Assembly (NCBI GenBank): GCA_023665555.1
Contig: JAMPDR010000001.1
Coordinates: 1 to 64,000 of the forward strand
Reading direction: 5' to 3'
Length of the DNA stretch: 64,000 nucleotides
Source of the DNA: Ruminococcus sp.
GTDB taxonomy: Bacteria; Bacillota; Clostridia; Oscillospirales; Acutalibacteraceae
Each line of letters starts with the position of its first letter. Within the stretch, counting starts at the first letter, position 1. A program made the position numbers and the translations under genes. Below the pieces are notes generated by a model that worked only from the letters and a program-made list of their open reading frames with translations, ran no database searches and was not told where the DNA came from. Below, one piece after another: positions 2,861 through 12,418 of this stretch.

Positions 2861-3499
2861 TTAATCAGCTTTATTATTTTTGCTGAAGCGTTCTTTAAAT
2901 TGTCTGTAGGTTTCAGGCATATAACTACAAAATGCAACCAGACATAAAATAGCTGAGATAACAACAAGTATACCTGTAAGTACGTCAGGCATTGTGAACC
3001 ATGTTCTGAATGCACCAACCTCAGGTCCGAATCCGATAATAAGAATCATGATACCGTAAAATGCCGCGGTAGCAACCTTGCCGGGCATTTCAGCAGCGCC
3101 CGGACGAATATTAAGCAAAAGCATTACTAAGCCACCAACAATCATAACCAGTTCTTTAATGAGGAACACAAGAAATACCCATCCAAATGCGTTAATTACA
3201 GTGTTGTCTGCATTGCGGAACATTATGAACAAGATAATTGCAATTGTAATTTGCGTGATTTTATCAGCAACCGGATCGAGCAATTTACCCAAAGCACTTA
3301 CTTGATTAAAACGTCGTGCAATTTTCCCGTCGAACAAGTCCGTTAATCCTGAAACAGCCAAAATAACTAAAGCGATTATTTGATGATCGCCGAGAAAGAG
3401 AACTGCAAAAACAGGAACAAGCGCAATTCTGATAACTGAAAGTAAGTTTGGAATTGTTAAACAACCTTTAAATAAATCCTTAATCATATCGTATTCCAT
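2861..3499 (-). CDS. pgsA: CDP-diacylglycerol-glycerol-3-phosphate 3-phosphatidyltransferase
   Basis: PgsA makes phosphatidylglycerophosphate from CDP-diacylglycerol and glycerol-3-phosphate, the committed step to phosphatidylglycerol in the membrane. The CDP-alcohol phosphotransferase signature D-G-x2-A-R-x8-G-x3-D-x3-D is intact: DLFDGKIARRFN, then GKLLDPVADK. About six hydrophobic segments and the 212-residue length fit the family. The ATG at 3499 sits only a few bases from GGAAAGG. The in-frame ATG at 3487 (MIKDLFKG) is a serious alternative, because the sequence around 3499 is part of an RNA element also found upstream of glmM. Confidence 0.93.
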   Translation of the reverse strand: MEYDMIKDLFKGCLTIPNLLSVIRIALVPVFAVLFLGDHQIIALVILAVSGLTDLFDGKIARRFNQVSALGKLLDPVADKITQITIAIILFIMFRNADNTVINAFGWVFLVFLIKELVMIVGGLVMLLLNIRPGAAEMPGKVATAAFYGIMILIIGFGPEVGAFRTWFTMPDVLTGILVVISAILCLVAFCSYMPETYRQFKERFSKNNKAD

Positions 3500-3500
3500 A

Positions 3501-3571
3501 GCCTTTCCAACTACAAGTAAAATAATAATTTAAAATCACATAAAATCTTGCTGTAGTCGCACAAGATGTGA
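3501..3571 (-). promoter_or_regulatory. Structured 5' leader of pgsA (copy 1 of a pseudoknot element)
   Basis: On the minus strand, stem TCACA/TGTGA encloses stem TCTTG/CAAGA and loop TGCGACTACAG, with a five-base bulge on the 3' side. After a 21-base linker, GTAGTT (3514-3509) can pair with GACTAC in the loop. The same AGTT can instead pair with GGCT to form a hairpin closing GGAAA. A second copy with compensatory changes lies upstream of glmM (11,313-11,382). This looks like a cis-regulatory RNA. No known riboswitch class was recognised. Confidence 0.65.
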
Positions 3572-3625
3572 TATTTTTTTGATTCGTTTCAAGCGCTTTC
3601 AACTGCCGAATACATACTTATTTAA

Positions 3626-9950: not shown

Positions 9951-11300
9951 TCAGATAAGCCTTAATTTAACAACTTCAGCAATTTCCTTTGCAAGAATCT
10001 TAATTTGATTCTCATCTTCACCCTCAAGCATAATACGAACAAGCGGTTCCGTTCCGGAAAGTCTGACAAGTACACGGCCGGTATTTCCAAGCTGTTTTTC
10101 AGCCTGTGCAATTGCATTAGCAATTTCCTTATCGTCATTAAAGCGTGCTTTACCCATTTTTGAAACGCGAACATTTACCATTGTTTGAGGATACACTCTC
10201 ATACAGGACGCAAGTTCAGAAAGTTTTTTACCGGTTTTTTTCATGATTTGAAGTATCTGAAGGGCAGTTAACTGACCATCACCTGTTGTTGCATGTTCGA
10301 GAAAAATAACGTGTCCTGATTGTTCTCCTCCGATTGAATAACCGTCTTGCAGCATTTTTTCAAGAACGTATCTATCGCCCACTTTTGTTGCAACGTAATT
10401 TATTTTATTTTCATCGCAGAATTTATTAAAGCCCATATTGGTCATAACTGTCACAACGGCAGTATTCTTATTGAGTGTGCCATTATTCTTCATAAACGAT
10501 GCGCATATGGCTATGATTTTATCACCGTCAACGAGTTCACCGTTTTCATCAACTGCCAACATTCTGTCGGCATCACCGTCAAATGCAAATCCAGCCATAA
10601 GCTTATTCTCAACAACATATTGCTGCAATCTCTCTATGTGAGTTGAGCCGCAGTCAAGATTAATGTTTATGCCATCCGGTGAAGCGGAAAGCATATCACA
10701 ATCTGCTCCGAGATCAGTGAAAAGCTTCTCGGCAGAAACAGATGCAGAACCATTCGCACAATCAAGAGCAATATGAAGACCTGAAAAATCAACGTTAACT
10801 GTTGACTTTAAATGTTCAATATAATCTTCAACTGTATGCTGACTTTTGCTGATTCTTCCAACATCTTTTCCGATTTTCATCGGAGGTCTTTCAGTTTCGT
10901 CAAGAATAATTGATTCAATTCTCTCTTCAACCTCATCAGGCAGTTTATAGCCATCAGACTTAAAAATCTTAATACCGTTATATTCACATGGGTTGTGAGA
11001 TGCTGAAATCATAACAGCAGCATCATATCCATATTCCTTCACTAGATATGCAACCGCAGGAGTCGGTACAACACCGAGCGTCATTACATCCGCGCCGACT
11101 GAGCATAGTCCGCATGCAATTGCAGATTCAAGCATATCACCTGAAATTCTTGTGTCCATACCTATAAGAACACGCGGCTTTTTTTGTGCAGTTTCTGTTA
11201 AAACCATTGCTGCCGCTTTTCCTATATTCATGGCAAGCTCACATGTTATTTCTGAATTTGCGACACCTCTGGCGCCATCCGTTCCAAACAATCTTCCCAT
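9951..11300 (-). CDS. glmM: Phosphoglucosamine mutase
   Basis: GlmM interconverts glucosamine-6-phosphate and glucosamine-1-phosphate on the way to UDP-GlcNAc and cell wall. The phosphoserine loop ISASHN places the active serine at residue 101. The metal loop DGDADR and the C-terminal phosphate-binding RLSGTEPLVR are intact, and 449 residues is the normal length. The ATG at 11300 starts the family-typical MGRLFGTDGARG; longer frames lack support. A structured leader (11,313-11,382) separates it from ruvB, hinting at separate control inside the operon. Confidence 0.96.
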   Translation of the reverse strand: MGRLFGTDGARGVANSEITCELAMNIGKAAAMVLTETAQKKPRVLIGMDTRISGDMLESAIACGLCSVGADVMTLGVVPTPAVAYLVKEYGYDAAVMISASHNPCEYNGIKIFKSDGYKLPDEVEERIESIILDETERPPMKIGKDVGRISKSQHTVEDYIEHLKSTVNVDFSGLHIALDCANGSASVSAEKLFTDLGADCDMLSASPDGININLDCGSTHIERLQQYVVENKLMAGFAFDGDADRMLAVDENGELVDGDKIIAICASFMKNNGTLNKNTAVVTVMTNMGFNKFCDENKINYVATKVGDRYVLEKMLQDGYSIGGEQSGHVIFLEHATTGDGQLTALQILQIMKKTGKKLSELASCMRVYPQTMVNVRVSKMGKARFNDDKEIANAIAQAEKQLGNTGRVLVRLSGTEPLVRIMLEGEDENQIKILAKEIAEVVKLRLI

Positions 11301-11312
11301 AATAAAACCCAA

Positions 11313-11382
11313 GCCTTTCCGGCTACAAATAAATTCATTAACAAAATTTATACATACCTCGCGTAGCCGCACAAGGTGTATA
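11313..11382 (-). promoter_or_regulatory. Structured 5' leader of glmM (copy 2 of a pseudoknot element)
   Basis: On the minus strand, stem TATACA/TGTATA encloses stem CCTTG/CGAGG and loop TGCGGCTACG. After a 22-base linker, GTAGCC (11326-11321) is complementary to GGCTAC in the loop. AGCC can alternatively pair with GGCT around GGAAA. Compared with the pgsA leader the outer stem is entirely different but still paired, and the loop A-to-G change is matched by TT-to-CC in the partner. The element begins 8 bases after the ruvB stop and ends 12 bases before the glmM ATG. Confidence 0.65.
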
Positions 11383-11389
11383 GTGAAAA

Positions 11390-12418
11390 TTAAAATAGCT
11401 GTTGCTGATTAGGCATTGCAATACCTAGGTGGTTATATCCCGCAGGAGTAACCATTCTTCCTCGCGGTGTCCTGCTTAAAAAACCAATCTGCATCAGATA
11501 AGGCTCGTATACATCTTCAATTGTTACAGATTCTTCACCGATTGCAGCGGCAATTGTATCAAGTCCCACAGGGCCTCCATTATAATTTTTTATCATTGTT
11601 GTTAAAAGAAGGCGGTCAATAGAATCAAGTCCCAGATTATCAATTTCCATTCTGCCAAGCGCCATATTAGCGGCTTCTTCCGTAATGATTCCATCAGCCA
11701 TAACCTCAGCAAAATCTCTTGCACGTTTTAGCAGTCTGTTAGCAATTCTCGGTGTTCCTCTCGAACGGGCAGCAACTTCAAGTGCACCATATTTATCTAT
11801 GCCGATGCCTAAAATTCCTGCACTTCTTGTTACGATTTGTGAAAGTTCTTCCGGTGTGTAAAGTTCAAGTCTTAAAACAACCCCGAATCTATCACGAAGA
11901 GGAGCTGAAAGCTGGCCTGCTCTTGTTGTTGCGCCAACAAGTGTGAACTTCGGCAAATCAAGACGAATCGACCTTGCTGACGGACCTTTTCCGATTATAA
12001 TGTCGAGAGCATTATCCTCCATTGCGGGATATAAAACTTCTTCAACACTTCGATTAAGGCGATGTATCTCATCGATAAACAAAACATCGCCTTCGTTTAG
12101 GTTTGTAAGCAAGGCAGCAAGATCTCCTTGCTTTTCAATTGCAGGCCCAGATGTTACTCTCAGATTTACATTCATCTCATTGGCAATTATTCCTGCCAAC
12201 GTAGTTTTACCGAGTCCGGGAGGACCATACAGCAAAACATGGTCAAGAGTTTCGCCACGCTTTTTTGCAGCTTGAATATATATATCGAGATTCTCTTTAA
12301 CTTTTTCCTGGCCGATATAGTCTGTTAATACTTTTGGTCGAAGTGAAATCTCTATATCCGAATCAAGCGGTGTATATTCAGCTGTTATATATCTGTCATC
12401 ATAATCCATCTCTGCCAT
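11390..12418 (-). CDS. ruvB: Holliday junction branch migration ATPase RuvB
   Basis: RuvB is the AAA+ motor that drives Holliday junction branch migration with RuvA. It has Walker [10 protein letters not shown], Walker [10 protein letters not shown], sensor ATTRAG, and the C-terminal winged helix ending in [13 protein letters not shown]. 342 residues is standard. It starts 3 bases after ruvA with AGGTG upstream. Confidence 0.97.

Follow-up and report, generated by a model that had tools for sequence, protein, structure and literature searches.

Background

Just upstream of pgsA, in a Ruminococcus sp. window of 64,000 nucleotides (the whole stretch of DNA analysed here), lies a compact sequence whose hairpin loop can pair with the bases preceding a purine-rich motif, and the same layout in other letters recurs before glmM. 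The locus thus raises the question of what such an element is, where it comes from, and whether it takes part in the translation initiation of the genes that it precedes. We approached it by describing the two leaders, searching the genome and its relatives for further copies, examining the pairing across copies, and comparing sites with and without the element.

Results

The leaders of pgsA and glmM

The leader of pgsA, on the minus strand, runs ATCACA-TCTTG-TGCGACTACAG-CAAGA-TTTTA-TGTGAT-linker-GTAGTT-GGAAAGG-CTATGGAATACGAT-ATG, and all the features that the preliminary description had given to it are present, from 3572 to 3485. This whole unit from outer stem to start codon (3485..3572), called the 3' domain after its place in longer copies, was also matched by a covariance model at 3482-3583 (76.5 bits, E 5e-21). 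The outer stem is formed by ATCACA (3567..3572) and TGTGAT (3535..3540), the latter lying 3' of the bulge TTTTA, and the inner stem S1 by TCTTG (3562..3566) and CAAGA (3546..3550), which enclose the hairpin loop TGCGACTACAG (3551..3561). Within the loop, GACTAC (3553..3558) is the 5' strand of a pseudoknot whose 3' strand, GTAGTT (3509..3514), follows a 21-nt linker; both strands, like the arms of S1, are supported by the pairing in 98 copies treated below. Directly 3' of the pseudoknot comes GGAAAGG (3502..3508), the proposed Shine-Dalgarno (SD) sequence, 14 nt 5' of the pgsA ATG, and then CTATGG.

The second window copy, in the glmM leader (11298..11382, minus strand; model match 11295-11396, 70.8 bits, E 3e-19), has the same layout with different letters, namely TATACA/TGTATA, CCTTG/CGAGG and GGCTAC/GTAGCC, followed by GGAAAGG at 11314..11320. 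As had been proposed, the pseudoknot is preserved between the two, since GACTAC/GTAGTT in the pgsA copy makes six pairs, one of them G-U, where glmM has GGCTAC/GTAGCC. Both window copies are among the 19 training copies of the covariance model, whose structure consists of the inner stem only, without the pseudoknot, and the E-values of such a custom model are rough; the next-best matches in the window have E 0.19.

The start codons needed attention. The suspicion that pgsA begins at 3487 and not at the predicted 3499 is borne out, because it is at that codon that PgsA orthologues start, with M(I/K)KDLFKG, and we place this CDP-alcohol phosphatidyltransferase gene at 2864..3487 on the minus strand (its TIGR00560 match is below the cut-off). 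For glmM (9954..11300, minus strand; TIGR01455, 570 bits) the N-terminus MGRLFGTDG starts at the ATG at 11300, and the TTG upstream is not the start. The conserved CTATGG (pgsA) and CTTGGG (glmM) are then sequence of the element, not start codons. Two types of glmM occur in the genus, with 65-83% and 44-48% identity to the window GlmM, which suggests that some members of the genus have had their glmM replaced.

Copies in the genome and in relatives

The genome contains numerous instances of the tail GTAGYYGGAAAGG, most of them preceded by a matching hairpin, and the covariance-model search found 41 copies at E<=5.2e-4, the first reverse-strand artefact appearing at E 0.005. What had been taken as an element of two copies therefore has about 41 in this genome, while both window copies are genuine. 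At 42 of 46 loci inspected in the genome an ATG at the expected place opens an ORF of at least 60 aa. The target genes share no common pathway: they include purB, dtd, glyS, def, rapZ, an ispD-like gene, glmM, pgsA, rpe, cinA, trmL and spoIIAB, together with an ArsR regulator, a queuosine transporter and others. Most copies of the genome are of the 3'-only kind seen at pgsA and glmM. Two nested copies stand before a VirD4/CD1115-like conjugal transfer gene (L038, G000:C67:1188-1445), which makes a conjugative element one of its carriers.

The expectation that the element would be a conserved leader of pgsA and glmM orthologues failed. All 17 readable pgsA leaders and 28 readable glmM leaders of orthologues are without it and have ordinary SD sites; lack of the loop-downstream complementarity in such leaders was one half of what the preliminary description had named as evidence against itself. 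The spread within the genus is patchy (13 copies in G041, 9 in G039, 0-3 in the others), and a species of another family (G033) carries 5. In that genome, from another family of the order, a compact variant also occurs (L067, L083), with a 7-bp pseudoknot GACTCAC/GTGAGTC or a 6-bp one GCTCAC/GTGAGC. Scanning 84,980 species for GYAGYCGGAAAGGCTATGG gave 93 stretches; most of them, bearing the pseudoknot, lie in metagenome-assembled genomes (MAGs) named Oscillospiraceae, Eubacterium or Clostridia and in Eubacterium coprostanoligenes ATCC 51222, and a few chance matches (Erwinia and others) have no pseudoknot. Fifteen of the genomes with GYAGYCGGAAAGGCTATGG hold 5-32 copies each, and about 200 further copies were found in related gut Clostridia, including E. 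coprostanoligenes; most genomes compared are MAGs. Among matches in viral contigs, one of two has the pseudoknot (L253, 4414-4432 on the minus strand of IMGVR_UViG_3300010163_000450).

Covariation and the fold

The claim of a conserved RNA structure, as opposed to a plain DNA repeat, is supported by covariation across 98 copies, drawn from paralogous copies at many unrelated genes and not from orthologous leaders. The pseudoknot helix, to which the model was blind, is 97.3% paired with changes on both sides in four of its six pairs, and S1 is 94.7% paired with such changes in all five. For S1 and the pseudoknot together there are 120 double-change cells against 32 +/- 4 after shuffling, which ignores the relatedness of copies; a control that allows for relatedness, sliding the partner by 1-3 columns, abolishes the signal. 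Among 27 3'-only copies of this genome the pseudoknot, in versions with CTGC/GCAG, CTAC/GTAG or CCAC/GTGG, is 97.5% paired (90.7 +/- 1.0 when shuffled), and all six pairs can form in 25.

S1 and the helix between loop and tail are geometrically compatible, whereas the fold program favours a nested alternative for pgsA: GACTAC/GTAGTT can also form a plain long-range hairpin without S1, and ViennaRNA prefers it there. Nor do the folding energies stand out (z -0.6 and -1.1), and both points tell against the reading favoured below. The alternative AGTT/GGCT hairpin, said to be preserved as well, can indeed form, but compensatory change is missing: in the AGYC/GGCT alignment there is G-U variation only, pairing is no higher than with shuffled letters, and the letters are conserved because of the pseudoknot strand and GGAAAGG.

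A compact pseudoknot beside an SD-like sequence is what translational riboswitches have, and second-messenger riboswitches do occur in many copies per genome, so that an ordinary ligand-sensing class, or a protein-binding leader with a defined regulon, deserves consideration. We nevertheless regard it as improbable, as the target genes have no function in common and vary from species to species, no association with a regulon was found and the pgsA and glmM orthologues do without the element. In addition, the unpaired bases of loop and linker are hardly conserved, and Rfam 15 gave no family match at the gathering score and nothing relevant at E<=5.

Full-length copies and their insertion site

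Many of the copies in the relatives extend beyond the 3' domain. A full-length copy has about 165 nt, in the order AGYGTGAAAAATCACRCT (a perfect hairpin), a second hairpin, AATTNCCAT, the 3' domain, ATGGNAATT and, mostly 3 nt on, the ATG. The closing helix AATTNCCAT/ATGGNAATT, which was also shuffle-tested, covaries in five versions: CCC/GGG, TCC/GGA, ACC/GGT, CAC/GTG and ATCACCAT/ATGGTGAT. A longer variant (L303 in G060, L316 in G071) carries an extra hairpin module of about 95 nt between the first and second hairpins. Matches to the first hairpin (28, in six genomes) nearly all precede a 3' domain, which speaks against a larger, autonomous element sharing this 5' end; the exceptions are L300, without a 3' domain, and one match at a contig end, and all that two of the matches carry in addition is the ~95-nt hairpin module.

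Of 56 full-length copies, 44 have an SD-like motif in the 16 nt that precede the first hairpin, as against 9.5% of random control windows. The first hairpin itself contains GTGAAA in 45 of the 56, mostly after the SD-like motif, which would suit leader-peptide attenuation, where the old SD drives a small ORF from this GTG and its translation controls the gene. Such an ORF, however, runs for 5 to 63 or more codons with varied ends and in all three frames, 11 full-length copies have no GTGAAA start, and the window copies have no such ORF start. With the small ORF not conserved across the 56 copies, a conserved leader peptide is unlikely, and attenuation of this sort can hardly be credited. In one copy (L006, G000:C40:18422-18527) the reading frame beginning at the first-hairpin GTG meets no stop codon all the way across the element and on into the gene; an N-terminal fusion is therefore possible there.

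The site of insertion is clearest at gpmI. The filled site reads GGAGGAT|AGTGTG...GGAAATT|AATATG, and orthologues in relatives have the empty site AGGAGATTAATATG and similar, so the element entered the spacer between SD and start codon. In this one insertion, set against its empty sites, any target duplication would measure 0-2 nt (T or AT), and no clear one was seen. Two tandem pairs repeat the same choice of site, the second copy lying between GGAAAGG and ATG of the first with the junction GGAAATT|AGTGTG. In these tandem junctions and at gpmI no terminal inverted repeats were seen, the ends AGTGTG... and ...GGRAATT being non-complementary. The right arm of the first hairpin is, copy by copy, complementary to the flank adjoining the SD (a mean of 3.80 pairs, against 2.42 +/- 0.16 with partners shuffled), which either the process of insertion or selection acting on the RNA may have produced.

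So clean an insertion between SD and ATG, together with a 5' end G(T/C)GTG and a first hairpin that pairs with the 5' flank like an intron guide, recalls a small intron-like element whose removal from the mRNA would restore the original SD-ATG spacing. Against this, no group I or II Rfam match was found even at E<=5, full-length copies included, and the 3' domain is kept in copies that have lost the 5' end and the old SD. The persistence of 3'-only copies and the failure to find an intron core make splicing unlikely, and the whole reading appears to us very improbable.

More weight is due to a purely selfish repeat of MITE or REP kind, whose hairpins would serve mobility, whose position before ATG would express a target preference, and which would have no role in translation. 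The many near-identical dispersed copies and the empty sites are indeed what defines a MITE or small interspersed repeat; tandem nested copies with the junction given above, the patchy spread in the genus, unrelated target genes and the flank-complementary first hairpin all agree with it. Its difficulty is in the worn copies. The window copies are without the first hairpins and the closing helix (4 of 9 closing pairs remain at pgsA, 5 of 9 at glmM), and keep the stem, the pseudoknot and GGAAAGG; retention of the 3' domain while the rest is lost suggests a function for the gene. The pseudoknot and RGAAAGG are kept with compensatory changes after loss of the 5' half and closing helix, and several copies, those of glmM and pgsA among them, have no other clear SD. 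We consider the purely selfish reading unlikely on these grounds.

RGAAAGG as a proposed start signal

GGAAAGG is near-invariant in the 98 copies. The 16S 3' end of E. coprostanoligenes, CACCTCCTTTCT, contains CCUUUCU, complementary to RGAAAGG; the anti-SD was read from this relative because the own assembly has no 16S gene. Moreover, glmM of several relatives has GAAAGG as apparent SD 10-15 nt from the ATG (L107, L111, L118). RGAAAGG is thus a putative SD site, as far as complementarity to the 16S 3' end can indicate. In 73 of 131 copies GG and ATG are 14 nt apart, which is long for an SD and counts against this reading. The pseudoknot ends at the first base of RGAAAGG, and in full-length copies it can extend into the site (TCCGGCTAC/GTAGCCGGA); a limiting or gating effect on initiation is therefore probable.

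Discussion

Putting together the pairing, the position and the decay of the copies, we think it fairly probable, on the comparison of sequences, that this is a mobile RNA element specific to the lineage, that its 3' domain turns into the ribosome binding site (RBS) of the gene, probably gated by the pseudoknot, and that the pgsA and glmM copies are worn members. Full-length copies would enter a gene always the same way round, between its SD and its start codon. The hairpin loop of the 3' domain would pair with the bases that immediately precede RGAAAGG, giving an H-type pseudoknot, and from RGAAAGG a nearly constant stretch of 14 nt leads to the ATG; RGAAAGG would act as the new SD of the target gene, and the pseudoknot, adjoining or overlapping it, would set or gate initiation, its open or closed state being determined by folding, by some factor or by upstream translation. 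Over time the 5' half and the old SD would decay, and the stem, pseudoknot and RGAAAGG would be retained because the gene now depends on them.

A bolder proposal, which we put forward tentatively and would not yet rate as probable, is that the element represents a new category of mobile element. It would be a repeat with RNA structure that, always the same way round, targets the interval from SD to start codon, silences or splits the old RBS (the first hairpin pairing with what lies beside the old SD) and supplies a pseudoknot-gated RBS, thereby bringing dozens of unrelated genes under one translational signal which is later domesticated. If this is true, many core genes of gut Clostridia owe their present translation start signals to a mobile RNA element; that would be a new route for the spread of post-transcriptional regulation and would account for misplaced start predictions such as pgsA at 3499 instead of 3487. 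Natural pairs with and without the element (gpmI, glmM, pgsA) allow the effect of gaining such an RNA element to be measured.

In a literature search that left many journals uncovered, and is weak evidence of novelty, no description of such an element was found, nor did we find an earlier account of a repeat that sits in the SD-ATG spacer and retains a pseudoknot. Several known systems share some of its properties. In the preQ1-I, preQ1-II and SAM-II riboswitches a hairpin loop pairs at or next to the SD, and the H-type pseudoknot could gate initiation. The element resembles them in this loop pairing and pseudoknot, and differs in that it is mobile, lacks an Rfam match, and shows neither a conserved ligand-binding core nor a conserved regulon. 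REP elements, associated with RAYT/Y1 transposases, are hairpin repeats as well, and the GTAG/CTAC and TTATCCGGC motifs are similar; the loop and tail letters CGCCTTATCCGGCTAC / GTAGCCGGAAAGG resemble the E. coli REP sequence. The test for a Y1 transposase gave no support, as the Y1 HUH domain (PF01797) is absent from the copy-rich genomes G041, G039, G061, G071 and G072, which argues against Y1/RAYT as mobiliser. No mobilising enzyme came to light, which, like the want of terminal inverted repeats or of a clear target duplication, counts against the favoured reading. Position at the start codon and orientation also differ from REP.

BOX, RUP and SPRITE are small interspersed repeats of Streptococcus pneumoniae (PMC3049150). 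Terminal inverted repeats, together with target duplications, are features of BOX and RUP, whereas the element here has no terminal inverted repeats, and in the portions of that source drawn on here none of the three is described as a one-orientation insertion between SD and start codon, or as preserving a covarying pseudoknot next to an SD-like sequence (PMC3049150). The nearest class is nonetheless that of small interspersed repeats such as the pneumococcal BOX (PMC3049150).
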